Below, in pieces: positions 12,525-28,648 of a stretch of 64,000 nucleotides of DNA. A program made the translations under genes and the position numbers. Each line of letters starts with the position of its first letter. Within the stretch, counting starts at the first letter, position 1. The DNA is taken from positions 25,720,565 to 25,784,564 of the forward strand of contig NC_073303.1 in the NCBI RefSeq assembly GCF_027595985.1, in the 5' to 3' direction. The notes under the pieces were generated by a model. The model was given only the letters and a program-made list of their open reading frames with translations, was not told the origin of the DNA and made no database searches. The DNA comes from Sorex araneus (taxonomy: Eukaryota; Chordata; Mammalia; Eulipotyphla; Soricidae).

Positions 12525-12776
12525 GCCCCAGCCGCCCGGTGGGCTCAGGCCCCGAGCCCAGAGCAACCAGCACAATAGCGTCCAACAGCTGGAACGCCAG
12601 CAGCAGCCCCGGGGACGCCCGGGAAGATGGGTCCGAGGGCCTGGACAAGGGGCTGGACAATGACGCGGAGGGCGTGTGGAGTCCGGACATCGAGCAGAGC
12701 TTCCAGGAGGCCCTGGCCATCTACCCGCCCTGCGGCCGCCGCAAGATCATCCTGTCGGACGAGGGCAAGATGTACG
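12525..12776 (+). CDS. TEAD3: TEAD3 exon 2: 5' UTR end and residues 1-67, AUA start
   Basis: Acceptor gcccctcccag before 12525, donor TACG|gtgcgt after 12776. Coding begins with ATA at 12575 in strong context (A at -3, G at +4) and reads [14 protein letters not shown], the human start. The frame stays open upstream within the exon but has no AUG there. The first half of the TEA domain is here. Confidence 0.95.
12575..12577 (+). promoter_or_regulatory. TEAD3: Non-AUG (AUA) initiation codon of TEAD3
   Basis: Bases acaATAG keep purines at -3 and +4. No AUG in frame exists in this exon before codon 66, so AUA start is needed to make an intact TEA domain. AUA initiation was reported for human TEF-5. 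Confidence 0.85.
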
Positions 12777-15700
12777 GTGCGTGTGGGGCCCCGGGGCCGC
12801 CCCTCCCCCTGCTCTCTGCCCCCTCACCCAACCGGTTTGGCCAAGTCCCGCGCGGCTGCCAGCCCGCCAGGGCGAGTCTGGGCGTGCGAGTGTCTGCACC
12901 CTCATAAACAGGCCAGAGCCAGGCCCACACCTCCCGCCCGGCCGGCCGCCACCTCCCCCCAACTGGCCTGCAGGTTTCGGCGTGACTCAGTGGGTCCAGG
13001 AAACTGGGTCAGTCCAGCAGGCCCCAGGCCAGGCCAGGGAGAGGGTCCACTCCCCAGAAGGCCGGGGTGGGTTCCCCCGCAGGGGTCAGCCCCGGAATGA
13101 GCAGGGGCCGCCCTCCGGCCAGTTCCCTTGGGGCCTCCCTGACTGCCCCCCTCACTCCCGGCCCCCCTGGCCCCCCCACTCTGTCCCCCACTCACTTCCT
13201 GCCCCTGTGAGCCCTGAGCTGCGTTTTCAGGGTCACCCAGCCTCTGCTGGCCGGCTCACACGCGGCCGGCCCGGGTGCCAGAGCCAGCATGGGGCGCGGG
13301 AAAGGAGGCGCCGGGCCAAGTGCTCCTCTGGGCGCTCCCCAGTTTCCCAGGCCCACCCCGAGCTCCAGAGCCTCCGGCGTGGGAGGCACGTGTGCCCGGG
13401 AGCCGGCGACGTGGGTGGGGTGTCCCCGGGACTCCCTCCCCGCCGGCAGGCAGCCCCCAGAGATATTCTTAGCAGGGTGGAGGGAGCAGCGCGGCCGGTT
13501 CTGTCCTGGGAGAGGAATCCGGAGAATGTGTCCGTCCGGGCAGGCCTCGGGACTGGGGCTGGGGGCTCTGGGCTGGCTCTGGGGTAGGAGGCGCCCGCCC
13601 TGAGGAGGCTGCTGGGCCCTGCCGTTGTCCCACTCACCCCGCCCAGCTGACCCTCAGAGGGTCCTCGTCGCTGAGCAGAAACCGCACACCCCAGGCCGAC
13701 GGGGCGGCGTGAGACTCTGGTCGTGGGTGACACAGGACACAGTGACGCCCCATGGACAGAGACTGGTGGAAAGCACTGGCCTGACTCAGCACAGCCCGGG
13801 GGTGGGGGGCGGGGGCAGGGGCAGGGTCGTCTAGGACAAGACCCTGCAGAACAGAGTCACCGAGACAGCCCTTCTTACTCACTGGGCCACATGTGTGCAC
13901 ACACATGCACACGCACACACTTGCACACGTTCACACACATGCACTCACACACACATTCACACCACACACTTGAACGCATATTCACATGCATGCACATGCA
14001 CACACACAAACATGTGTTCACACACATGCACATGCTCACACACATGCCCACACGCTGACATTTACACACACATATAAGCACACATTCATACATGCACATG
14101 CACGTGTATTTGTACACACATGCACACACTCCACATGCATGCACACATGCATACGTTCACATGCACACGCATTCACGTGCATGCCCACGCACACACGAGC
14201 ACCTGCCCCCTCTGCGGACACTGGTCAGCTCCCTGTGGCCACTCCTTTCCTGGACTCTGTGGGACTCACGCCCCTGGACCCTGCTGGCAGCCAAAACTTC
14301 CCAGCTCCGGGGCTGGAGCGAGAGCACAGCGGGTAGGGTGTTTGCCTTGCACGCGGCCGACCCGGGTTCGATTCCCAGCATCTCATATGGCCCCCTGAGC
14401 ATCTCCAGGAGTAATTCCTGAGTACAGAGCCAGGAGTAACCCCTGAGAGTCGCCAGGTGTGACCCAAAAAGAAAAAAAAAAAGACTTCCCAGCTCCTATG
14501 GAGGGACCGAGGGCAGGTTGGGGGGTTCGGGGCCTGCAACAGTTCCCAGGTGTCCGCCCGCCCTGTACCCCACTCATTTCCCACTCTGCCCCTTCTAGGC
14601 CGGAACGAGCTGATTGCACGCTACATTAAGCTGAGGACGGGGAAGACTCGGACGAGAAAACAGGTAGGGACGCCGCCATGTGCAGTGACCCCCCCACTCC
14701 CCCCTCCCTCACGCTCCCTCTTCTCCTGGAGCACCCCTGTTCTAGAGGAAGGGGCGCTGACCTCTCTCACGGTAGCCCAGTGCCGCTGCAGTCCCAGCCT
14801 GAGTGGTCCCTAGAGCAGTCGGCCGGGCCTGGGGGTCCTGATGGGGAGGGGGTCCTGTTAAGCCGGCAGTTAACCCAGACCAAGAGCGGGGGCAGGAATT
14901 AGGACTGGGGAGGAGGAAGAGAGCTGGAGGGCTTCCTGGAGGAAGTGCTCCTTCATTTCTGTATTTAGCCTAGCAGGAGAGAGAGACAGAGACAGAGACA
15001 GAGATCGAAATTCCAGGTTAGGAAAGCTGGGTTGTAAATAAAAGTGGTGAACCCGCACAGAACTTACTTTAATTTGTTTAATCTTCCCATCAGAGAGGTA
15101 GATAGAGTAGTTATCGCCATTGCACAGATAAGGAAACTGAGGCATGGGGAAGTAAAGTGGCCTCCTCAAGGACATTGGGCTGGCGGGTGGAGGAGCCAGT
15201 CACCCCACCAGGTGTGGTGGAGCCCGGGGCCAGGGACCTGAGGGACAGGGGGACAGCAGGGGCAGGGCTGGGGGGTGAGGGGCAGCAGGGAGTAGCAGGA
15301 CTGGCGGGGCTGGGGCAGTTTCGAGGGCTGGAGGGTATCCACGGGGCGGGCAGTGGGCCTCGAGGGTGGTGGCAGTGGGGATGTGAGAGGCCATCTGGGG
15401 CCCCGGGCAAGGGAGTGGCGGAGGGGCTAGGGAGAGAGGACCCTGCGAGGGCCACAGCCAGCACTCGGCCCCAAGCACCTCGGGGCCTGCCCCTCCCCCG
15501 ACCAGAAGCGAAGGCAGGAAGCCAAAGGAAAGGGAGTGAAGTGGGCGAATTCCGGGGTGTCCGGAGGCAGCTCTGACTCCCAGCGCTTCCCAGCAGCCTG
15601 TGCGGCTGGGGTTCGAACCCACCAGCCAGCCGGGACCCGCTGTGTGTGCAGGGGGAGCCCTGCCCCAGCCCGCCGTGCCAGAGAAGGTGGAGACCCCCGC

Positions 15701-18700
15701 CCCGTGGGGAGGCAGAAATGCTCCCGCATTGGTCCGAGCACTTATTAACCGCCCTCCCCGGCCGGCCCCCCGCCCCCCCCCCCCCCCGGGCTGCCGGCGG
15801 CTTCGTTCGTTCTCCGGGTGAATGATTGAGCCGCCCCGTCCGGACCCCGGGCCGGCCGGCCGCAGCAAGGGCCCTGCTGGCAGAGCCCAGGCCGCGGAGG
15901 AATGTTTCCTGCCGGCCCCGCCTTCCAGCACGGCCTCGGGCCAGCGGCTCCGGGCGCCCAGCCAAGGCTCGGCGGGTGACTGGCGGCCTCCGTGCGGGAG
16001 GCTCGGGTTTGAATCCCCCCACCCCCGCACCACGGGGTCCTGGAGCACTGAGCCAGGAGCAGCCCTCGGCGCTGCTGTATGTGCTGCCCCCTCCCCCTTC
16101 ACAAGAAAAGAAATTACCGTCGTCGTCCCACGGGGGCGGAGAAGGCGCTTGCCTTGCACGCAGCCGACCCAGGTTCCATCCCCGGCTCCCCATCAGGTCC
16201 CCTGAGTCCGCCACGAGCAATTCCCCGAATGCAGAGTCGGCCGGGGGGGGGGGCGAGGGGGGGAGAGGCCGCAGCACCCCCGGGGGTGCCCCTGAGAGAA
16301 ACAAACAAGCAAAGTGGAGATGGAGAGAGAGTGCAGGGATAGGATCCTACGGGCCTTGCAAAAGCTGACGCGAGTTGAATCCCCAGCATGCCATATGGTC
16401 CCCGTGGTGCCAAGGAAGGCAGGGAGGAAGTTCCCGCCTCCTCCAGTCTTAGTCTAGAGTCGCACGTGAGGATTTGCTGCTGCCTTGCTGTCTTCAGAAG
16501 CTGCCGCCGCCGTGGGGTCCTGCTGCCCCCTTGCGGGACTGCCTTGAGGGATGAGAGGGGAGCGTTTGGCGGGGTCCTGACGAGTGAGCGTGGTGTTTGG
16601 TCCGAGCCTCAGGCTGAGGAGCCGAGTTCTGGGTCCCTCCAGCCCTGGCAGGCGTCCCCTCCAGGCTCCCAGCTCCCAGCAGCCCTGGCGGGCCTGGGTG
16701 TAGGACACAGGCTACATGTGCAGGACGCATGGTCCCTGTCCCTGGCATCGCGTGGTCTCTCGAGCCCCGAGCACAGAGCCAGGAGCAGCCCTGCCGAGCA
16801 CTGCCAGGTGCGGCCTGCCCCCAGACTGAATAAATCTGGGCAGGAAGTGATGGTACAGCAGGTAGGGCATTTGGCTTGCACTCGGCCGACCCGGGTTCAA
16901 TCCCCAACATCCCGTACCGTCTCTGAACACCACCAGGAGTACTTCCTGATGCAGAGCCAGGAGGAACCCCTGAGCAGTGCCAAATTTAGCCCAAAAACAA
17001 AAATGAAGGGGCTGGAGCGATAGCGCAGTGGGGAGGGCGTTTGCCTTGCATGCGGCTGACCTGGGTTCAGTTCCCAGCATCCCATATGGTCCCCCGAGCA
17101 CCGCCGGGAGTAATTCCTGAGTGCCTGAGCCAGGAGTAACCCCTGGGCAACGCCTGGTGTGACCCAAAAAGAAAAAGAAAAAAAAAAGAGAACAAAGCAA
17201 CTGAGTAAATCAAAGGCACTATCCAGGAGCTGTGAGGTCGAGGCAGGGCTGCACGGACAGGTGAGGTTTCTCTCAGGGTTTTACTGACTTGGGCGGGGGA
17301 CAGTGCAGTTTGTGCGGCCAAGCAATAGCCCAGAGGGTAGGGAGGGTGTTTGCCTTGCACGCAGCTGACCCTGTTTCCATCCCTGGCACCCTACCTGGTC
17401 CCCTGAGCACCTTCAGGAGTAATTCCTGAGGGCAGAGCCAAAGTATGCCCCCCCAAAAAAAGCAAAACCAAGGGGCTGGAGCAATAGCACAGCGGGGAGG
17501 GCATTTGCCTTGCACGTAACTGACCCGGGTTCGATTCCCAGCATCCCATATGGTCCCCCAAGCACCGCTAGGAGTAATTCCTAAGTGCAGAGCCAGGAGT
17601 AACCCCCGTGCAACGCCGGTGTGACCCAAAAAGAAAGAAAAACAACCAAAACTGCAGTTTCTGTTTTTCACAGAGACATGCACAGGAACAACTCCTCAAG
17701 GGGCATCTCCGGGTGCTCCCCTGGGCCCTGCCCACAAGGACATGGTGAGCCCCTGGGCTGGCCTCTCCAGCCACAGTCTGGCTCCAGCTGAGTGACCTCG
17801 GCTTCGCTGCTGGCCCTCTCTGTGCCGGGGTTCCCCTCGGTGCTGCCTGAAGATGGGGGCGCCCGTGCGTGTCCGGTGCTGGGTGCAGCTGTGGGTGCTG
17901 GGAGCACTCAGAAACGCCGAGTTCTCAGCGGGGCTCAGGGCAAGCAAGTGGGTGCCAGAGTCCGGGCCCAGTGAGGCCACTTGGGAGCACCCCTGGGTCC
18001 TAGCCCGGCACCCCATGTTTAGTGACAGGTGTGGGGCTATGATGGAAAAGGCAAGGAGGTAGCCGGGGAGAGAGCCCCAAGGACGGGGGCGCGGGTTCGA
18101 TCCCCGGCACTGTGGGGTCCCCCCAGCCCCCTCCAGCACCACCGGGATGTGGCCCCGGCAGAAAAAAAGATAAAGACGGAGCTGTAGAGATAGTACAGCA
18201 GGAAGGGCTCTTGCCTTGCACAATGCTGACCCGGGTTCGATCCCCAACATTCCATAGGCCTCTTGAGCAACACTAGTGCCTGAGCTCAGAGCCAAGAGTC
18301 AGCCCCGAGCACTGCTGGGTGTGGCCCAGAAAAACAGAAAAGAAACTTTAGATGCTGGAGTGATAGTGCAGGGAGTAGGGGCGATAGAGTGAGTCGGTGA
18401 TAGTGCAGTGAGTAGGGCAATAGAGTGAGTAGGGGTGATGGTGCAGTGAGTAGGTCAACAGAGTGAGTAGGGGTGATGGTGCAGTGAGTAGGGCAATAGA
18501 GTGAGTAGGGGTGATGGTGCAGTGAGTAGGGCAACAGAGTGAGTAGGGGTGATGGTGCAGTGAGCAGGAGTTATAGTGCAGTGAGTAGGGGTGATGGTGC
18601 AGTGAGTAGGGCAATAGAGTGAGTAGGGGTGATGGTGCAGTGAGTAGGGATGAGACAGTGAGTAGGGGTGATGGTGCAGTGAGTAGGGATGAGACAGTGA

Positions 18701-21700
18701 GTAGGGGTGATGGTGCAGTGAGTAGGGGCGATAGAGTGAGTAGGGGTGATGGTGCAGTGAGTAGGGCAATAGAGTGAGTAGGGGTGATGGTGCAGTGAGC
18801 AGGAGTTATAATGCAGTGAGTAGGGGTGATGGTGCAGTGAGTAGGGATGATACAGTGAGTAGGGGTGATGGTGCAGTGAGTAGGGCAACAGAGTGAGTAG
18901 GGGTGATGGTGCAGTGAGTAGGGGCGATAGAGTGAGTAGGGGTGATGGTGCAGTGGGTAGGGGCGATAGAGTGAGTAGGGGTGATGGTGCAGTGAGTAGG
19001 GCAATAGAGTGAGTAGGAGTGATGGTGCAGTGAGTAGGGGCGATAGAGTGAGTAGGGGTGATGGTGCAGTGAGCAGGAGTTATAGTGCAGTGAGTAGGGG
19101 TGATGGTGCAGTGAGTAGGGCAATAGAGTGAGTAGGGGTGATGGTGCAGTGAGCAGGAGTTATAGTGCAGTGAGTAGGGGTGATGGTGCAGTGAGTAGGG
19201 CAATAGAGTGAGTAGAGGTGATGGTGCAGTGAGTAGGGGCGATAGAGTGAGTAGGGGTGATGGTGCAGTGAGCAGGAGTTATAGTGCAGTGAGTAGGGGT
19301 GATGGTGCAGTAAGTAGGGATGAGACAGTGAGTAGGGGTGATGGTGCAGTGAGTAGGGGTGATGGTACAGTGAGTAGGAGTGATTGAGTAGGGATGATGG
19401 TGCAGTGAGTAGGGGTGATGGTGCAGTGAGTAGGGGTGACGGTGCAGTGAGTAGGGGAGATAGTGAGTAGGGGTGATACAGTGAGTAGAGGGGATGGTGC
19501 AAATGAGTAGGGCGTTTACCTTGTAGACTGCTGATCTGGGTTCGATTCTCGGCATCCCATATGGTTCCCTCAGCCCAGAGTCAGGAGTAATTTCTTTCTT
19601 TTTTAAAAAAATTTATTTATTTATTTATTTATTTGCTTTTTGGGTCACACCCAGAGATGCACAGGGGTTCCTCCTGGCTCTGCACTCAGGAATTACTCCT
19701 GGCAGTGCTCAGGGGACCATATGGGATGCTGGGAATCGAAGCCGGGTTCAGCCGCGTGCAAGGCAAACACCCTCCCCGCTGTGCTATTGCTCCAGCCCCA
19801 GGAGTAATTTCTGAGTGCAAAGATAGGACTAACCCCTGAGCACTTCCAGGTGTGGCCCAAAACCCAAACAAAATAAGAAGAAACTTTGTTTGTGGACATT
19901 TAACCCCCCCTGGCGCACTGAGGGCGGGCGCAGACCCCACCAGATGAGACTCGCCCGGCCCCCAGCACCCCTGGACTGAGCCGCCTGGCGTCACTGACCC
20001 AGCACTGACCGTCTGTCTGGCCCACACAGTCAGACCGAGCACTGCCGCGGGTGGCTTCCGGGACTCCCGAGCACTGCTTGGGGCCTTCCTACCTCCAAGA
20101 GACAACCTGTCGAGAAAGGGCTGCGGGGCTGGTGGGCTCCCTGGGGCTCAGGGTCAGGGACAGCATCAAGGGACTGTGAGCGGCACAGTGCATGTGTGTA
20201 GTGTGTGCACACGTGCATGTTTGCGTGTGTGTGCACGTGTATGCACACCTGGGACTCAGCTCAGGTCCGCCAGCAGAGGGGGCCCAGACACAGGACCTGG
20301 TTAGGGTGCGTACCTAGCATGTGCCGCCCACACAGGGAGTCTGGGATCCCCCAGTACGGCCAGGTGTGGCCCATGTGTGCCACGGGGCCCAACATCATTG
20401 CATCCTGCGACCCTGCATTCAACCAGCAGCCCGGTCAGCTGAGAACTGCTGGTGGGGTCCCTGGGCACATGCACACATGTACACACACCTGCAAACACAC
20501 GTGCACGCACATGTACGCACACGTGCATACATGCATGCACACACTTGCGCGCATGTACAGGCACACACCTGCACACCACACATGTACATATGCACGTGCA
20601 TGCATGTATGCACACACACGCACATACATTCACTTGTGCACACCTGCACACACGTGCGCAAACACGTGTATGTGCACACACGCAAACATGCAGGTGTGCG
20701 CACACACATACACACATGCACACACTGCCACATGTGAGGCCAGGAGATGGAAGGCATGGGCCGTTCAGGAGCTGCGTTGATGAGACAGGAGGGGGTTGGG
20801 GGGGCGGGAGGGCAAGCTGCCGGCCTGACAGGAGGACAGTGCTGTGGCCAGAAGGTCTAACGCAGTGGCCGTGGCCTTGATGTAAACACCGTGGTTGCCA
20901 CCAGGAACATTACGGCCATCACTTTCCTCAGATGCCAATTAGCACAACAGATAAGGGCCTGGGATGGGGCTTGAGGGGCAGAGCACGGGCCTTCCCGTGG
21001 TCTGTCCGGGGGAGGCGCCCCACAATAGCGAGGAAAGGGGGATAAAGGGAGTAAACAGATATCCCCTCGGGTGAGGCGCCAGCACAGCCGGTCAGGCGCT
21101 TGCCGTGCACCTGGCGGACCCTGGTTTGATTTTGGCACCGTGCCCTCTGGTAAGGGTAGTGACTCGAAAGACAAGAAACAAAAGAAGATGCCTCCTCTGA
21201 GGGCACCGGTGAAATAGTCTCTCTCTCTCTGGGAAACGAACAAACAAAAGCCCAGAAGTTCTCCTTCGCTGGCTTCAGTGTGGCCCTCGTGGGCCAGGCA
21301 CTCTTGTGCAGTGAACAACCTTCCCAACCGCACATGGCCACCCGGGAAACCATACAGGTTCCCGACCCAGGCCGGGGCCAGGGAGAGCGCAGTGCTCGCG
21401 GGCTGAGGGGTGTCTGCCCACAGGGTCCCGCATCCCCCGCCCCCGCGCCCCTTTGGTCTCAGAGATGTGAGCTGTGTGTCCGTGCCGCCCCCTCACTCTG
21501 TGTGTTTTCCTCTCCCGCGGGGCGCGGGGCGGCCCTTAGGTGTCCAGCCACATACAGGTTCTAGCTCGGAAGAAGGTGCGGGAATACCAGGTTGGCATCA
21601 AGGTATGTTGGGCGCCTGCCCGGGGCCTCCAGCCCCTGCTCTGCCCCCGCCCTGGCGCCTCCCTCGGCTCTCCGGCCCGCTCTGCCTGTCCTCTGGCTCC

Positions 21701-24700
21701 AGCTCGGTTCTGGCCTGGTCTTCTGGTGCTCTCTCTGCTCCTTTTCTCTCTCTCGCTCTTTCTCTCTCTCTCCAGGTCTCTAGCCACTTGCAGGTTCTAG
21801 CCAGGCGGAAATCTCGCGAGGTTCAGTCCAAGCTGAAGGTAGGGGGTCCCCCGCCCCGAGGCCGGGCCCAGGCCTGCTGCTGCCCTCTGGATCCTGGCCG
21901 GGGGCCGGGCAGGGTCCCCCACCCCAGGCCAGCAAGGGGAAGGGGGCCAGCCGGGGGCCCCCCCGAGGCCCTCACCCCGCTTCTCTGGTTTCCTTTCTCT
22001 CCTTCCTCCTGATCGCTGCTTGCTGCCTGCAGGGGCCATGAGGTGGGCAGGGGAAGACCTTCGGGGGTCCGGGCCGCAGCGCTGCCGTGGTGGGCCTGGC
22101 CATCCCGGGCCCCGGACCTCGCGTTTGCACACTTCCGACCCGGGTTCGATCCCTGGCATCCCATAGGGTCCCCCACTCCAAGCCTCACTGGGAGGGATCC
22201 TGTGGCTGAGGGTTTCGTAGTCTAGGGTTCCAGGCCTGGGAACCCCCCTGCCCCCGACACCCCCCAGCCTGTATCCTGGTTGCAGACTGTGGACACACTC
22301 CAGGGATACTGGCTCCGTGGGATCCAGGCTTCCAGCCTGTCCCGGCTCAGCCTGACCAGTCCAGGGCTCCCAGAGGGAGGGATGCAGGGAAGGCTCCCCC
22401 GAGGGCGGGGCTTGGAGCAGGTGGGCGGGGCTTGGAGTCAGTGGGCGGGACGCAGTCTTGGCCCCACCCACGGGGCGTGTCTGTGTTTCTAACCGGTCTT
22501 CCCTCTCCTTCACAGGCCATGAACCTGGTAAGTACCACCAGCCCACCAGCCCCTGGGCAGCGGGGAGGGCTGGCTCTGGGACCAAGACGCTAGCAGGTCA
22601 CTTAACCAGGGGACTTTCATATCCTGTTTTGTGAAGTCCGTCGGATAGGTTTGCCCTCGGGACTTATTTACACATGACATTTTTGGGGCTGGATAGAACG
22701 CAGTGGGCCAGCCCTTACTTAGCATGGGAGAGACCCAGGTTCCATCCCCAGCACCGCATAGGGTTCCCGGAATACAGAGCCAGGAGTAAGCCCCGAGCAC
22801 AGAGTCAGGAGTAAACCCTGAGCACCTCCAGGTGTGGCCCTGTCATCATTATTACTAATAATAAACAGAATTTTAAAGAATAAATAAGGGCTGGAGTGAC
22901 AGTACAGCAGGTAGGGTATTTGCCTTGCACACAGCCTACCCAGGTTTGATCTCTGGCATCCCATATGGTCTCCCAAGCACCTCCAGGAGTGACCCCTGAG
23001 CACTGCCTGGTGACTCCCACCAAAAAATAATAAATAAGCATGAAATATTTTGGTTACAGCGGGTAGGGCGTTTGCCTTGCATGCCGCCGACCTGAGTTCG
23101 ATTCCCAGCATCCCATATGGTCCCCCGAGCACCACCAGGAGTAATTCCTGAGTGCAGAGCCAGGAGTAAACCCTGAGCATCTCCGGGTGTGACCCAAAAG
23201 CAAAAAATCCTAAAAATCAAAGTAAAATAAAATAGAACAATTGACCTGGGGGGCCTGTGAAGGCAGATTCGGGGACAGAGTGATAGTACAGCAAGCGGCT
23301 GAGGCACCTGCCTTGCACTGATTGGTACCATGTATGGTCCCTGAGCCCACCGGAAGTGATTCCTGAGGGCAGAGCCAGGACAAAGCCCTGAGCACCGCTG
23401 GTATGGCCCCGAAGCCAGGGGGGAAAAAGGAGTCTCTGATGTAGAGCACTGTGAGCCCAGGAACTGGTGCTTTGAGCGAGTGTCCAGGAGGCGCTGCCCC
23501 AGCCTTAGACGGGCCGCCCCGGGGTCTGCAGGGCCGTGTTAGGGCGCAGGCAGGCTTGAGACGGGAACACCAGGCACTTCCTGGTGTGGGCTGAGCAGGG
23601 CAGGGGGAGTGGGGTGGGGTGTGCAGGGAGGACAGTGCTGAGCGGGTCGGGCAGGGGCCCGGGCCACCCAGTCCTGCCCGGCTGAGCGTCCCTCCGTCGC
23701 TGCAGGACCAGGTGTCCAAGGACAAGGCGCTCCAGAGCATGGCGTCCATGTCCTCGGCGCAGATCGTCTCGGCCAGCGTCCTGCAGAACAAGTTCCGCCC
23801 GCCCTCGCCCCTGCCCCAGGCCGTCTTCTCCTCGTCCTCCCGGGTACGGGGCGGGGGGGGGGGGGGGGGGGCCCTGGGGCGGGGGAGCCCTGGGCGGAGG
23901 GAGGGGGCGCAGGGCCGGGAGGGGAGGATACTCAGGGGTCCTTGGGCCTTGTCCCTTCTCTGCAGTTCTGGAGCCCCCCTCTCCTGGGACAGCAGCCTGG
24001 ACCCTCTCAGGAGTGAGTATTGGCGGCTGGGGGCGGGGGTCCGTCCCACACCCCCTCTTGTCCTGCCCCCACAGCCTTAGTCAGAAATGGGGATGTGGGT
24101 GCCAGAGAGAGAGCGCAGGGGCGAGGTGCTTCCCAGGGACCCCAGCACTGCCGGGGTCACTCCTGAGCGCAGGGCCAGAAGTCTCCTGAGCACCGCTGGC
24201 TGGCCCCCCGCCCCGGCCCCACCCCAAGCAGAGGGTTGAAGAGGCGCTCGCGGGGGCTCGCCCACGGACCTTTCTTTGTTTGTTTGCTCGGCCTCAGCCG
24301 CTCAGCCGCTGTCCTCCTCCGTTTATTTTTCCCTCAGCTAATCTCTGCGTCAATCTCCCAGACGGAGCCGGGGACTAGTTGGCTCCTTTTCTCGGAACCT
24401 TCCTGGTCAGGCGCCCCGAGGGGTTCATGAGCCGCTCGGGGTGGGGTTGCCACGCCACCTGAGCAGCGTCGGGCAGCGCGCGGAGGCGGCAGGGCCAGCG
24501 GGGAAACAGGGCCGGGCCGAGAACTCGTGGGCTTGCACTAGGGGCCTTGCACAGGGCTGGGGTGCGCTCTGCTGAGGGCCCAGTGAGACCACCCGGGTGA
24601 CGGGTGGGAGGGGGCACAGGGAAGGGGTGACACTAACCAGGCTGTGCCCCTCTCTGCAGCATCAAGCCCTTTGCACAGCCAGCCTACCCCATCCAGCCTC

Positions 24701-25610
24701 CCCTGCCTCCGGCGCTCGGCAGTAAGTCCTGGGCCTGGCCCACACCTCTGACGGGACAGGGGAGCCCAGCTGGGGGGGGTATGCCTGTGTGTGCGTGTGC
24801 ATGTTGTGGGGTGGGCGTGTGCACGCACACGTGTGTGTGTATGAGGGGTGTATGTGTGTATGTGCATGTGTGGAGGTATATGGGTGTGCACATATGCATG
24901 GGGTGTGCACATATGCGTGAGGGGTGTATGTATGTGTGTGTGCGTGCGGGGTGTGTGCGGGGATGTATGTGATGTATGTGTGTGTGCACGCATGCATGCA
25001 TGTGGGGATGTATGAGTGTGGGTACCTGTGAATGAATGTGAATGTGAGAATGTGTGTGTGAATGTGTGTGAGTGTAGGGTGTGGGGGAGAATGTATGAGT
25101 CAATGTGTTTGTGGGGGTGTGGGTGAGGGTATGTCTGAATGCGAGGGTGTGTATGTGAGAGTGAGTGTGTATGTGTGAGTGAGGGTGTCTGTGTGTGGGT
25201 CAAGGTGGGTGAAGGGATGAGGGGATGAGTGTGAGCAGGTGTGTATAGGAGTGAGGGTATGTCTGAGGGTGTGTGAGAGAGTGTGTGTAGGTGTGTGAGA
25301 GTGTGTGGATGTATGAGTGATTATGTGAATATGAGCGTGTGTGAGGGTGTTTAAGAATGTGTGCGTGAGGGTGTATGTGAGTATGTGTGTAGATGTGAGT
25401 GAGAGTTGGGTGTATGTTAGTGAGGGGGTGTGTGTGAGAGTATGAGAGTGTATGTGTCTGTGAGAGGATGTATGTAGGTATGTGTGTGAATGTTGTGTAT
25501 GTGAGTGAGGGGGTGTGTGTGAGTGTGTAAGGGTGTGTGTGTGAGTGTATGTCAGTTGTGTGTATGTGAGTGTATGAGGGAGTGTGTGTGAGTGTATGAC
25601 AGTATATGTG

Positions 25611-25664
<54 letters not shown>

Positions 25665-28648
25665 CGAGAGTGTCTGCAGACATCTCCTGGGGCGTGGGAC
25701 AGACCTTGAGTAGCCGCCTGCCTTTCACAACGTTGCTTCAAGAACTCTGCAAGAAGCTCCCTTCTGGGGCAGAGAAATAGTACAGTGGGAGGGCACTTGT
25801 ACGCGGCCGACCCGGGTCCAATCCCCAGCACCCCATATGGTCCCCGAGCCCACCAGGGGTGAGTCCTGAGCATAGAGCCAGGAGTAAGGTCTGAGCACCA
25901 CTGGGTGTGACCCCAAAACTCAGGAACCAGTCGCCAAACGTATGACATTGCTCCTATGGATGGAACATTTTCTGTAAGGAAATGCACCAAAATCTTCAGG
26001 TTTTCATCTTGCTATTTAATTAATGGCTTTTATCTTTTGTTTTGTTTTGTTTTGGTTTTGTTTTTTGGGCTACACTGGGCGATGCACAGGGGTTCCTCCT
26101 GGCTCTGCACTCAGGAATTATTCCTGGCAGTGCTCAGGGGACCATGTGGGGGATGCCAGGGATCGAACCCCAGTTGGCCACAGACAGAAGTGCCCTCCCC
26201 ACCGTACTCTCTGCCCTGGCCCTGACTTGACTTTTAAATATCTAGTTAGCTAGTTATTGAATCGAATCTCTGTGAAATATGCCATTACAAAGTTGTTCAC
26301 AGTGATTGGACGTTTTTAGAGTGGTTTGTTCTGGGGCCCCACCCTGTCTCAGAGAAGGTCTGGCATTCCCGGGAGCCCCTCCGCACGCACAGGCCCACCC
26401 ACGACCAGCTCTGCGCAGCCGGGGTGGCACCGTTGTTTATTCTTGGCTTTGGATCGTTGCGTTTTTAGGGAGGCCCCGTGGCGTACAGTCCTGGGAACAT
26501 CCTCCGAGCCCTCCGCCACTGACTGCGGGACTTTGATCCTCCCTTCACCCTCCTGCGTTTTCCGTTCTGGAGGATAGAGATGGAAAAAGCCTGTCGAGGG
26601 GCAGGATAGGTAGTTCAGTGGTTTGATCCCCAGCACCGCGTAGGGTCCCCTGAGTACCCCCCACACCCCAAGAAGTGATTTTTGAATACAGAGCCAGGAA
26701 CGAGCCCTGAGCACTGCTGGGGGTGCCTACCTTCCCCCCAAAAAAGGCCTGTTGACGCGTCTCTGACCCTCGGGCCACACGCACACACGCGCACGCCCGC
26801 CTCCTCCTGCAGGTTACGAGCCGCTGGCACCCTTGCCCCCCGCCGCCACCTCCGTGCCCGTGTGGCAGGACCGCACCATCGCCTCCTCGCGCCTGCGGCT
26901 CCTCGAGTACTCTGCCTTCATGGAGGTGCAGCGGGACCCCGACACGGTAACGTGGGCCGGGGTGGGAGCGGGCTGGGGGGGCCACCCTTGCCCTGCAGCC
27001 CTCCCCACTCCACCCCCCCACCACCCCGAGCTGTCCTGACCCGGCGCCGGCCCTCCCCACAGTACAGCAAACACCTCTTTGTGCACATCGGCCAAACGAA
27101 CCCCGCCTTCTCGGACCCGCCCCTGGAGGCGGTGGACGTCCGTCAGATCTACGACAAGTTCCCCGAGAAGAAGGGGGGACTGAAGGAGCTTTATGAGAAG
27201 GGCCCCCCGAATGCCTTCTTCCTCGTCAAGTTCTGGGTGAGCCGCCAGCACCCGGGAGGCTGCCCGCCCCGGCCAGCACGCACACTCCCTGTGCTTTCCC
27301 GTGGGCGGGGAGAGGGGGGCTCCGCGCGGCCGCGCCACCCCACGGTCCAGCCAAGGAGGGAGGGGGGAGCCGGGGCTTAGGCTGGCTAAGCCTCGTGGAG
27401 ACGACCCCGACAGATTGGGCCTGGTCCACCGCAGTGCTTGGTCTTAGTTCGTGTGGGGGCCGCCCGCAGCTGTCCTGTGTGCTGACTCCTGGCTCTGTGC
27501 TCAGGGGTCCCTGCGGGCAGGGCTGGGGGACTGGATGGACCCCGGCTCGGAGCATGCAGGGCCGGCGGCCTCCCCGCTGTGCTGTTACTCCGGCCCCTCT
27601 CCCCACTGTCTCCTGGAACCCCTGGCGGTGCTGGCAGTGGGTCCTCAGCCTGGATGGCCCCCCGCGCCAGCACTCACAGCATTCCCGCCCCCCCACCCCA
27701 GGCCGACCTCAACAGCACCATCCAGGAGGGCCCCGGGGCCTTCTACGGCGTCAGCTCGCAGTACAGCTCCTCGGACAGCATGACCATCAGCGTCTCCACC
27801 AAGGTGTGCTCGTTCGGCAAGCAGGTGGTGGAGAAGGTGGAGGTGAGTCGGGGAGCAGGGGGCAGCCCCCCGGCCCGGAGCAGGCCCCGAGGTGCCGCGT
27901 TTGCCCCTCTCTGCAGACCGAGTACGCCAGGCTGGAGAACGGGCGCTTCGTGTACCGCATCCACCGCTCGCCCATGTGCGAGTACATGATCAACTTCATC
28001 CACAAACTCAAGCACCTGCCCGAGAAGTACATGATGAACAGCGTGCTGGAGAACTTCACCATCCTGCAGGTGTGTGTGTGCATGTGTGTGAGCATGTGTC
28101 TGTTTGCACTTGTGTCTGTGTACATGCACAGTTGTGTATGGGTGTGTGAAGTACATGATGAACAGCATGCTAAGAGAACTTCAGCATCCTGCAGATGTGT
28201 GAGTGTGTATGTGTGCATGTGTGTGCATGTGCATGTGTGTGTTTGTGTAGTACATGATGAACTCTACCATCCTGCAGGTGTGTGAGTATGTATGTGTGCA
28301 TGTGTGTGCATGTGCATGTGTGTGTTTGTGTAGTACATGATGAACTCTACCATCCTGCAGGTGTGTGAGTGTGTATGTGTGCATGTGTGTGTTTGTGTAG
28401 TACATGATGAACTCTACCATCCTGCAGGTGTGTGTGGCCAAGGGTCCCAGCCCCTGTGCTCCTGTTTAGATTTTGTTTCCTCTCTGGCCCACCCCTGGGG
28501 GTGCTCAGGGCTCACTCCTTCTTCCGGCCCACAGGTGGTCACGAGCCGGGACTCCCAGGAGACGCTGCTCGTCATCGCCTTCGTCTTCGAGGTCTCCGCC
28601 AGCGAGCACGGGGCACAGCACCACGTCTACAAGCTCGTCAAGGACTAG
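12575..28648 (+). CDS. TEAD3: TEAD3 (TEF-5), TEA-domain transcription factor, complete coding span
   Basis: DNA-binding partner of YAP/TAZ and VGLL proteins at the end of the Hippo pathway; nuclear. Twelve coding exons join to 1305 nt, 434 residues plus stop (human 435): 12575-12776, 14599-14663, 21540-21602, 22516-22527, 23706-23843, 23966-24012, 24660-24721, 26813-26946, 27063-27236, 27702-27842, 27917-28069, 28535-28648. The TEA domain covers about residues 28-104 ([50 protein letters not shown]). A proline-rich linker follows, then the YAP-binding immunoglobulin-like domain (about 216-434) ending HHVYKLVKD. Cys367 in [12 protein letters not shown] corresponds to the autopalmitoylated pocket cysteine. 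The start is AUA (Ile codon read as Met), as established for human TEAD3; the next in-frame AUG is residue 66, inside the TEA domain. All phases agree. A second version of the third coding exon lies at 21776. Confidence 0.97.
12777..14598 (+). other. TEAD3 intron 2
   Basis: GC-rich left part without recognised elements, a CA/CATG tract at 13880-14205, and a young SINE at 14309-14483 that ends 115 bases before exon 3. Confidence 0.8.
14309..14483 (+). mobile_element. Young tRNA-derived SINE with 13-bp target-site duplication
   Basis: Near-consensus copy (A box tagcgagagcacagcggg-like, B box ggttcgattcc, A-rich tail). It is bounded by perfect acttcccagctcc repeats at 14296-14308 and 14484-14496. 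Confidence 0.96.
14599..14663 (+). CDS. TEAD3: TEAD3 exon 3: residues 68-89
   Basis: Acceptor ccccttctag, donor CAG|gtaggg. Encodes [20 protein letters not shown] plus KQ, the second helix of the TEA domain and the basic stretch before helix 3. Confidence 0.97.
15050..15215 (-). repeat. MIR SINE, antisense
   Basis: Contains attgcacagataaggaaact, gaggcatggggaagtaaa and later MIR blocks. Confidence 0.75.
15960..18345 (+). mobile_element. Cluster of nine or more head-to-tail SINE copies
   Basis: All on +. Approximate copies: 15960-16085 (decayed), 16126-16245, 16322-16415 (partial), 16712-16840, 16841-17005, 17008-17192 (near consensus), 17312-17470, 17472-17648 (near consensus), 18031-18168 (decayed), 18177-18345. 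Insertion into A-rich tails of earlier copies would explain the same-strand stacking. Unique DNA lies at 16416-16711 and 17649-18030. Confidence 0.85.
18353..19505 (+). repeat. Minisatellite expanded from a SINE A-box region
   Basis: About 55-60 copies of a roughly 20-bp unit close to ggtgatggtgcagtgagtag, often alternating with a shorter variant (ggcaatagagtgagtag), giving a higher-order unit of about 38 bp. The unit equals the SINE head segment from gatagcacagcgggtaggg. Long minus-strand open frames of HHHPYSLY type are translations of the repeat. Confidence 0.95.
19596..19800 (-). mobile_element. SINE nested in an older SINE, 13-bp target-site duplication
   Basis: Near-consensus antisense copy with an A-tail read as (TTTA)n. 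Flanked by aggagtaatttct at 19583-19595 and 19801-19813. Confidence 0.95.
20180..20735. repeat. CA/TG-rich tract (two blocks)
   Basis: TG-rich block 20185-20250 and CA/CATG block 20465-20732, separated by a possible decayed SINE fragment. Confidence 0.85.
20878..20965. promoter_or_regulatory. Candidate intronic regulatory block
   Basis: A unique stretch among repeats holding a FOX-like tgtaaaca, a RUNX-like gtggtt, an NF-Y/homeodomain-like ccaattag and a GATA-like agataagg within 85 bp. Motif co-occurrence only; conservation was not tested. Confidence 0.25.
21068..21160 (+). mobile_element. Decayed SINE fragment
   Basis: Retains gcgcttgccgtgcacctgg and a degenerate B box; no tail. Confidence 0.5.
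21540..21602 (+). CDS. TEAD3: TEAD3 exon 4a: TEA helix 3, canonical TEAD3 form (63 nt)
   Basis: Encodes [20 protein letters not shown] plus K, identical in type to human TEAD3. Donor AAG|gtatgt is good. The acceptor is poor: the pyrimidine tract is interrupted by about 20 G/C-rich bases (gcggggcgcggggcgg) just before cccttag. Phase 0 at both ends. Confidence 0.93.
21776..21838 (+). CDS. TEAD3: TEAD3 exon 4b: alternative TEA helix 3, TEAD1/2/4-like form (63 nt)
   Basis: A tandem homologue of exon 4a, 173 bp downstream, with the same length and phase. It encodes [20 protein letters not shown] plus K. The RRKSRE..SKLK pattern is that of TEAD1/TEAD2/TEAD4 rather than canonical TEAD3. It has a long pyrimidine tract ending tctctctccag and donor AAG|gtaggg, so its splice signals look stronger than those of 4a. 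The frame is open. Whether it is used, and whether 4a and 4b are mutually exclusive, cannot be read from DNA. Confidence 0.85.
21839..23705 (+). mobile_element. SINE copies around TEAD3 microexon 5 (introns 4 and 5)
   Basis: Plus-strand copies at about 22125-22200 (fragment), 22686-22845, 22887-23030, 23054-23210 (5' truncated) and 23272-23430. The remaining bases up to each exon are GC-rich and unremarkable. Confidence 0.85.
22516..22527 (+). CDS. TEAD3: TEAD3 microexon 5: Ala-Met-Asn-Leu (12 nt)
   Basis: GCC ATG AAC CTG between ccttcacag and gtaagt, both strong sites. It matches the AMNL of human TEAD3 just after the TEA domain and keeps phase 0, so skipping is silent for the frame. Confidence 0.93.
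23706..23843 (+). CDS. TEAD3: TEAD3 exon 6: residues 115-160
   Basis: Acceptor cgctgcag. Encodes [20 protein letters not shown] onward to VFSSSSR. The donor CGG|gtacgg is weak and is followed within 10 bases by a run of 19 G. Confidence 0.95.
23853..23871. repeat. Homopolymer G(19) next to TEAD3 exon 6 donor
   Basis: Uninterrupted G run nine bases inside the intron. It can form G-quadruplex RNA, and its length is prone to sequencing error. Confidence 0.85.
23966..24012 (+). CDS. TEAD3: TEAD3 exon 7: residues 161-175
   Basis: [15 protein letters not shown] and two bases of Asp; acceptor ttctctgcag, donor GA|gtgagt. Human has FWSSPP, so one serine fewer here explains the 434 versus 435 length. 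Confidence 0.94.
24660..24721 (+). CDS. TEAD3: TEAD3 exon 8: residues 176-196
   Basis: [20 protein letters not shown] plus G, the proline-rich linker. Acceptor ctctctgcag, donor A|gtaagt. Confidence 0.95.
24780..25672. repeat. Long degenerate TG/GTGA-rich simple repeat
   Basis: Nearly 900 bp of tgtg, gtga and gtat variants ending in a pure (TG)n at about 25615-25661. Purine/pyrimidine alternation on this scale may form Z-DNA. Confidence 0.92.
26813..26946 (+). CDS. TEAD3: TEAD3 exon 9: residues 197-241
   Basis: [20 protein letters not shown] to EVQRDPDT; start of the YAP-binding domain. Acceptor cctcctgcag, donor ACG|gtaacg (non-consensus at +4/+5). Confidence 0.96.
27063..27236 (+). CDS. 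TEAD3: TEAD3 exon 10: residues 242-299
   Basis: [20 protein letters not shown] to FFLVKFW, core beta-strands of the YAP-binding fold. Acceptor ccccacag, donor TGG|gtgagc. Confidence 0.97.
27240..27412 (+). repeat. Intron 10 copy of a segment also present in the TEAD3 3' UTR
   Basis: Shares cacccgggaggc, cacactccctg, gtgggcgg, gagaggggggctcc, gccaccc, aggagggaggg and cggggct in the same order with 28741-28930. Confidence 0.65.
27440..27600 (-). mobile_element. Decayed SINE in TEAD3 intron 10
   Basis: Reads tgactcctggctctgtgctcag and ends cgctgtgctgttactccggccc; the middle is diverged. Confidence 0.75.
27702..27842 (+). CDS. TEAD3: TEAD3 exon 11: residues 300-346
   Basis: [20 protein letters not shown] to GKQVVEKVE; acceptor ccaccccag, donor GAG|gtgagt. 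Confidence 0.97.
27917..28069 (+). CDS. TEAD3: TEAD3 exon 12: residues 347-397
   Basis: [20 protein letters not shown], then C367 and [20 protein letters not shown] to NFTILQ. Includes the lipid-pocket cysteine and the YAP-contacting helices. Donor CAG|gtgtgt runs into a TG-rich array of exon-derived repeats. Confidence 0.97.
28070..28534 (+). repeat. Exon-derived minisatellite in TEAD3 intron 12
   Basis: TG-rich sequence interleaved with copies of the 3' end of exon 12: a 43-nt diverged copy at 28152-28194 and three identical 27-nt copies at 28251-28277, 28334-28360 and 28401-28427 (TACATGATGAAC ... ATCCTGCAG). Each 27-mer is preceded by gtgtag and followed by gtgtgtg, so each looks like a tiny exon encoding YMMNSTILQ in the exon 12 frame. 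Confidence 0.93.
28535..28648 (+). CDS. TEAD3: TEAD3 exon 13: residues 398-434 and stop
   Basis: [20 protein letters not shown] to [12 protein letters not shown] at 28646-28648. Acceptor cggcccacag. Confidence 0.97.

Follow-up and report, generated by a model that had tools for sequence, protein, structure and literature searches.

The Hippo pathway reaches DNA through the TEAD proteins, which are cancer drug targets and are commonly regarded as four invariant proteins; the TEAD3 locus of Sorex araneus raises the question of whether one of them comes in two versions chosen by splicing. The window analyzed here is a 64,000-nucleotide (nt) stretch of contig NC_073303.1 (RefSeq assembly GCF_027595985.1, positions 25,720,565 to 25,784,564, forward strand), and TEAD3 was identified in it by tblastn, the human TEAD3 protein aligning exon by exon over 12575..28645. 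Numerous copies of a SINE typical of Sorex agree with the shrew origin. An inspection of the letters without database searches (hereafter, the sequence-only reading) had proposed that two tandem exons encode alternative forms of helix 3 of the TEA domain. Exon 4a (21540..21602, + strand) and exon 4b (21776..21838, + strand) proved, as proposed, to be stop-free 63-nt exons of phase 0, preceded by AG, followed by GT, and separated by an intron of 173 nt (21603..21775, + strand), and phase 0 also applies to the junctions around them (exon 3/4a, 4a/4b, 4b/12-nt exon, and 12-nt exon/next exon). Exon 4a has a weak acceptor, a CTCAC branch-point-like site (A at -45) and the donor AAG/GTATGT, and encodes what we take to be the canonical TEAD3 peptide; exon 4b has a strong acceptor and the donor AAG/GTAGGG, and its peptide contains RRKS. 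We consider it probable that 4a and 4b are ancient interchangeable tandem exons that predate the separation of TEAD1 and TEAD3 and were retained in both genes, with 4b serving as a minor regulated alternative in TEAD3; that 4b has a functional alternative use in general seems likely.

In TEAD3, 4a and 4b are identical at 38 of 63 nt and, when translated, at 14 of 21 residues, and silent differences are present in 7 of the 14 codons that specify the same residue. Codons 1–10 contain a single conservative residue change (I5L), with 0.56 silent differences per site versus 0.07 replacing differences per site, and the other six residue changes lie in codons 11–21, where helix 3 ends and the linker follows. 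When both strands of the 64 kb were scanned with a degenerate DNA pattern of the first 12 codons (V-S-S-H-x-Q-V-L-A-R-x-K), 4a and 4b were the only matches, and two matches were reached in none of 100 dinucleotide shuffles. When a query bearing 4a was used in tblastn, 4b was also found (E 0.002). Tandem duplicated exon substitutions are defined by adjacency, a length of at least 8 residues and homology detectable by BLAST; 4a and 4b are adjacent, encode 21 residues each and find each other by BLAST, and exchanging one for the other preserves the frame, both being 63 nt long with phase 0 on either side. Judged from the genomic sequence, the TEAD3 pair would be a member of this known kind, in which both exons are used in transcripts.

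Regions of the three paralogs were taken from the same genome (L012, TEAD2; L013, TEAD4; L014, TEAD1) and named by comparing their exon-4 and next-exon peptides with human sequences and with the sequences of TEAD4 and TEAD1 structures. The name TEAD1 is further supported by a human TEAD1 reverse transcription PCR primer given in PMC12422734, which matches exactly at L014 3611, within 4b. TEAD1 carries the same pair in the same order, 89 nt apart, with 4a (KKVREIQAAIK) at L014 3424-3486 and then 4b (RRKSRDFHSKLK) at L014 3576-3638. TEAD2 and TEAD4 have one exon 4 each, both of the 4b type. A protein search of the whole 2.4-Gb genome with 4b (E<=10) gave six candidates, all six of which were scored and were matches, namely TEAD3 4b, TEAD3 4a, TEAD1 4b, TEAD1 4a, TEAD2 and TEAD4; these counts are lower bounds, as decayed copies could go undetected. 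With 4a as the genome-wide query at E<=0.001, only 4a itself was matched. No second exon-4 match above 19 bits was detected by tblastn in TEAD2 (9.5 kb) or TEAD4 (9.9 kb), and no 4a relic of either gene was among the six genome-wide matches, which a decayed relic could escape. The exon-4 pattern had no match in the viral or the prokaryote contig collection (0 each), and the NCBIfam scan gave no match. As a separate observation, the TEAD4 intron before the single exon 4 (L013 813-1759) appears by eye to be largely a CATC-type tandem repeat, and this repeat stands where a 4a copy would have been.

How old is the pair? When 4a and 4b of TEAD1 and of TEAD3 were grouped by DNA in 10,000 codon bootstraps, they grouped by exon type in 9,575, by gene in 315 and across in 0, with 110 ties; by residues, the corresponding numbers were 9,970, 0, 0 and 30 of 10,000. 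Since each exon groups with its counterpart of the same type in the other gene, the duplication is indicated to be older than the TEAD1/TEAD3 split, which dates from the genome duplications early in vertebrate history. Loss of 4a is the probable course in TEAD2 and TEAD4. The main form of TEAD1 is 4b, as seen from TEAD1 structures and the human primer, and TEAD3 presumably makes mostly the 4a form.

Exon 4b shows the pattern of a constrained coding exon. In an alignment of all four 4b exons, the first, second and third codon positions had 8, 0 and 16 variable columns (of 21 each). TEAD3 4b differs from TEAD1 4b, TEAD2 and TEAD4 at 12, 17 and 18 nt, respectively, never at a second position, the probability of which under uniform placement is 0.004, 0.0003 and 0.0002. 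In the same order, the proportion of synonymous differences (pS) was 0.46, 0.86 and 0.77, and that of nonsynonymous differences (pN) was 0.10, 0.08 and 0.13, in the range of the comparison between two single exons, TEAD2 and TEAD4 (pS 0.75, pN 0.08). Residue identities summed over the other three 4b exons (out of 63) were 56 for TEAD2, 53 for TEAD3 4b, 52 for TEAD4 and 51 for TEAD1 4b. Substitutions in the 4b class, as sampled by the paralogs of one genome, are thereby concentrated at silent positions. In a neutral simulation starting from 4b (20,000 runs), the splice dinucleotides, the open frame and 19 or more of the 21 residues survived together in 16% of runs at 0.1 substitutions per site, in 0.9% at 0.2 and in 0.05% at 0.3. 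The concentration at silent sites and the low neutral retention together imply that 4b was constrained for most of its existence, indicating that TEAD3 4b is constrained coding sequence and not an old relic. The sequence-only reading had called 4b TEAD1/2/4-like and no obvious relic; the first description agrees with the paralog comparison, and the second with the constraint pattern, the open frame and the intact splice dinucleotides.

Splice sites were scored in bits with a simple weight matrix. Acceptor scores were -4.4 for TEAD3 4a versus 15.9 for TEAD3 4b, the contrast already described from sequence, and -2.4 for TEAD1 4a versus 12.8 for TEAD1 4b, so that a weak 4a and a strong 4b acceptor are common to both genes. 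Donor scores were 9.5 (TEAD3 4a), 8.7 (TEAD3 4b), 9.1 (TEAD1 4a) and 8.2 (TEAD1 4b). The 4a-4b intron of TEAD3 contains only 4 A in 173 nt, versus a window average of 20%, and is A-free over 21702..21773; 3 of 6,383 overlapping intervals of the same length are equally poor. The last 70 nt of the intron contain nine UCUU/CUCUCU matches, a number reached in 29 of 12,786 overlapping intervals. Such tracts bind polypyrimidine tract-binding (PTB) proteins, which are often exon silencers. We infer that use of 4b, despite its strong splice sites, is limited by a branch point that is weak or far away, and perhaps by PTB, which would make 4b a minor or tissue-limited exon.

Strict mutual exclusivity in TEAD3 would need a mechanism to enforce it, and the sequence shows the following: inclusion of both exons or of neither carries no frame penalty, the spacing is 173 nt, no distinct branch point stands out for 4b, and pairing of the flanks is at chance level. 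Base pairing of flanking RNA as a means of excluding one exon was rejected, 58, 142 and 169 of 200 shuffles being at least as stable. In TEAD1, branch-point-like A residues at -42 and -54 of 4b lie 48 and 36 nt from the 4a donor, and distances of 36–48 nt are near the steric-blocking limit for mutually exclusive exons such as those of alpha-tropomyosin. Steric exclusion of this type is not proposed for TEAD3, where the only A residues outside the splice sites are at +29 and +99; from a branch at +29, the first AG reached would be that at +99/+100. No RBFOX motif (GCATG) occurs near TEAD3 4a/4b on the + strand of 21440-22040; in TEAD1, GCATG is present at L014 3748, 110 nt past 4b.

What would the exchange do to the protein? 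The Pfam TEA profile (PF01285; cut-off, 25.1 bits) scored 99.1 bits with 4a, 98.1 with 4b, 104.5 with both and 74.8 with neither, the gathering score being passed with either exon and also with neither. Either exon is predicted to supply the start of helix 3. The base-reading residues of this helix do not differ between 4a and 4b; in TEAD structures, they are the Q and the second S of VSSH. The proposal that the choice alters DNA preference is weakened by the single I/L change in the first ten residues, and the label "DNA-recognition helix" by the location of six of the seven changes at the end of helix 3 and in the linker. An effect on nuclear traffic, suggested by the same reading, fares differently for swapping and skipping: a bipartite nuclear signal has been mapped in fly Scalloped (PMC3121794), and its basic clusters are kept in a 4a/4b swap, whereas skipping of both exons would remove the signal. 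From 4a to 4b, TEAD1 and TEAD3 change alike, from RKKV to RRKS and from a GIK or AIK end to KLK, with net charge rising from +4 to +5, and the RRKS serine is residue 102 of the TEAD1 sequence. Phosphorylation of TEAD by protein kinase A (PKA) and protein kinase C has been reported to disrupt DNA binding (review, PMC6628201).

Under the mechanism that we propose, 4a and 4b would present nearly the same base-reading face, and the parts altered by exon choice would be the final turns of helix 3 and the linker. Exon 4b would add RRKS, a PKA-type motif, at the S102 position of TEAD1 and a more basic SKLK end; the corresponding parts of 4a are RKKV and GIK/AIK. The most likely consequence is that the switch would determine whether phosphorylation can shut off DNA binding, and also how the DNA-binding domain joins the remaining protein. 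This phospho-switch reading of the 4a/4b choice is a tentative one, which we regard as possible. A broader form of it, which we put forward as doubtful, is that an ancestral vertebrate TEAD could choose by splicing between two ends of the helix, one phosphorylatable (4b, RRKS) and the other not (4a, RKKV), that TEAD1 and TEAD3 took opposite defaults and TEAD2 and TEAD4 were fixed for 4b, and that Hippo output could today be made sensitive or resistant to cyclic AMP (cAMP) in this way.

Published human RNA data fit, indirectly, the use of the TEAD1 pair. A "90 bases" region of human TEAD1 is probably 4a, if "90 bases" is a distance, because in the shrew genome 89 nt separate TEAD1 4a from the 4b that follows, and 4b contains the forward primer of the exon 6 assay. 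A "TEAD1 exon 5B" has a weak 3′ and a strong 5′ site, and its drug-enhanced skipping was confirmed by PCR (PMC10325915); these properties would fit 4a better than 4b. According to a review (PMC10167241), SRSF1 promotes inclusion of TEAD1 exon 5. An in-frame skipped exon of TEAD1, included in mesenchymal cells, was described as an "internal repeat downstream of TEA domain" (PMC3158048); Tead1 was also listed among earlier reported Mbnl splicing targets, the exon not being given there (PMC7498679). PMC8495978, PMC7438495 and PMC12486507 had no bearing on a TEAD exon swap. The literature searched, open-licence PubMed Central articles, contained no description of a TEAD3 4a/4b swap. As far as these searches go, the pair common to TEAD1 and TEAD3 is undescribed. 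Databases may hold a TEAD1 form with VREIQAAIK.

Several points weigh against 4b being an ancient and still regulated alternative with a kinase-related role. RNA evidence for TEAD3 4b was not found in the literature searched, and the assignment of the "90 bases" region and of "5B" to 4a is our own, since "90 bases" may be a size. No U-N-A branch-point-like site is present in the 150 nt upstream of TEAD3 4b, and a 72-nt stretch, -74 to -3, lacks any A; with a branch-point A missing, the strong tract of 4b may not give efficient use. The pS between TEAD1 4b and TEAD3 4b (0.46, on about 16 synonymous sites) is below that of the other 4b pairs (0.70-0.86), which could reflect chance on so few sites or gene conversion. 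Function may have been lost on a recent branch, up to about 0.14 substitutions per site (interpolated), the data being from one genome. The TEA profile match stops at the ninth residue of exon 4, so the near-equal scores do not compare the differing halves; the weight that we give to the ancient, interchangeable pair does not rest on these scores. TEAD4 has an alanine at the RRKS serine, so this site is not essential to a 4b-type exon. TEAD1 S102 is presumably a PKA site, and confirmation of this for TEAD was not found in the literature searched.

Some of these points would suit a young fossil, an exon that once was an alternative, has fallen out of use in the TEAD3 of this lineage and still awaits decay. 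The A-free stretch before 4b, the lack of TEAD3 4b in the literature searched and the compatibility of the sequence with a short relaxation in the neutral simulation would all be expected of such an exon, but its splice dinucleotides are intact, its frame is open, no second position has changed relative to three 4b relatives, and its residue conservation is intermediate between that of TEAD2 and that of TEAD4; we regard this explanation as unlikely. The age of the pair would also be misjudged had separate duplications produced it in TEAD1 and in TEAD3. TEAD1 4a and 4b are identical at 44 of 63 nt, exactly as TEAD1 4a and TEAD3 4a are, and this agrees with the DNA replicates that grouped by gene. 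Exon order is the same in both genes, however, and nearly all replicates, DNA and protein, grouped by type, with K11, V13 and I20 common to both 4a exons and R11 and L20 to both 4b exons, which leaves separate origins very improbable.

Two other alternatives concern what the exons do. Splicing of both 4a and 4b into TEAD3 would double the helix-3 segment and alter activity; the 173-nt intron is long enough, the A at +99 could act as a branch point, and the protein with both exons had the highest TEA score, 104.5 bits. The steric argument against it, from likely branch points whose distance to the 4a donor, 36 or 48 nt, approaches the limit for steric blocking, concerns TEAD1, and nothing in TEAD3 itself forbids joint inclusion, to which we nevertheless assign a small probability. 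That the choice alters which DNA sites TEAD3 binds was the main idea of the sequence-only reading, and the exon does cover helix 3, with I5L among the base-reading residues; the otherwise unchanged residues of codons 1–10, with silent far above replacing differences, make this improbable as well. Ancient interchangeable exons, with 4b as a minor regulated form in TEAD3, are the explanation that we prefer to all of these.

The exons around the pair lie on the + strand. Exon 2 (12575..12778, ends approximate) runs from the ATA start to M-Y-G and was identical to human TEAD3 at 65 of 68 residues by tblastn; exon 3 (65 nt, 14599..14663) has a phase-0 end, and the exon 2/3 junction farther upstream reads as phase 1. 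Between 4b and the next large exon (23706..23843) is a 12-nt exon encoding AMNL (22516..22527), which the sequence-only reading did not include and which has the position of the 12-nt TEAD1 exon 6 (PMC10167241). GCATG, an RBFOX-type motif, occurs at 22722, 195 nt 3′ of this exon. A similar 12-nt stretch encoding ALNV, with AG before and GTAAGT after, was noted in TEAD2 (L012 reverse strand, reverse-complement position 2536), at the position that corresponds to the AMNL microexon of TEAD3 and to exon 6 of TEAD1.

If the preferred explanation is true, TEAD1 and TEAD3 would each be two proteins, possibly with different kinase responses, primers or antibodies directed to this exon would detect one form only, and the locus would illustrate clearly how gene duplicates can divide an ancient exon choice among themselves. 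The closest known cases are the tandem duplicated exon substitutions of Martinez-Gomez et al. 2022 (PMC9741552), which share adjacent homologous exons, interchangeable segments, an old origin and subfunctionalization among gene duplicates, there FYN-related kinases and calcium channels; TEAD is absent from the main text of that work. Relative to those cases, two paralogs here keep both exons with presumably opposite main forms. The TEAD1 pair resembles that of TEAD3 in order, length, phase, residue signatures and weak 4a/strong 4b acceptors, but differs in its intron (89 versus 173 nt), in its branch-point-like A at -42/-54, of which TEAD3 has none, and in its main form, 4b. The RBFOX2-regulated, 12-nt exon 6 of TEAD1 (PMC10167241) is the next alternative unit 3′ of helix 3, with the 12-nt exon of TEAD3 in the same place; it differs from the 4a/4b pair in being a four-residue inclusion or skipping with no swap, and in reportedly changing interaction with YAP, not DNA binding. 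TEAD4-S, which arises by RBM4-dependent skipping of exon 3 (PMC5867882), is likewise a case of splicing that alters a TEAD DNA-binding domain, but there the domain is removed and the product is dominant negative, whereas a 4a/4b swap would keep the domain.

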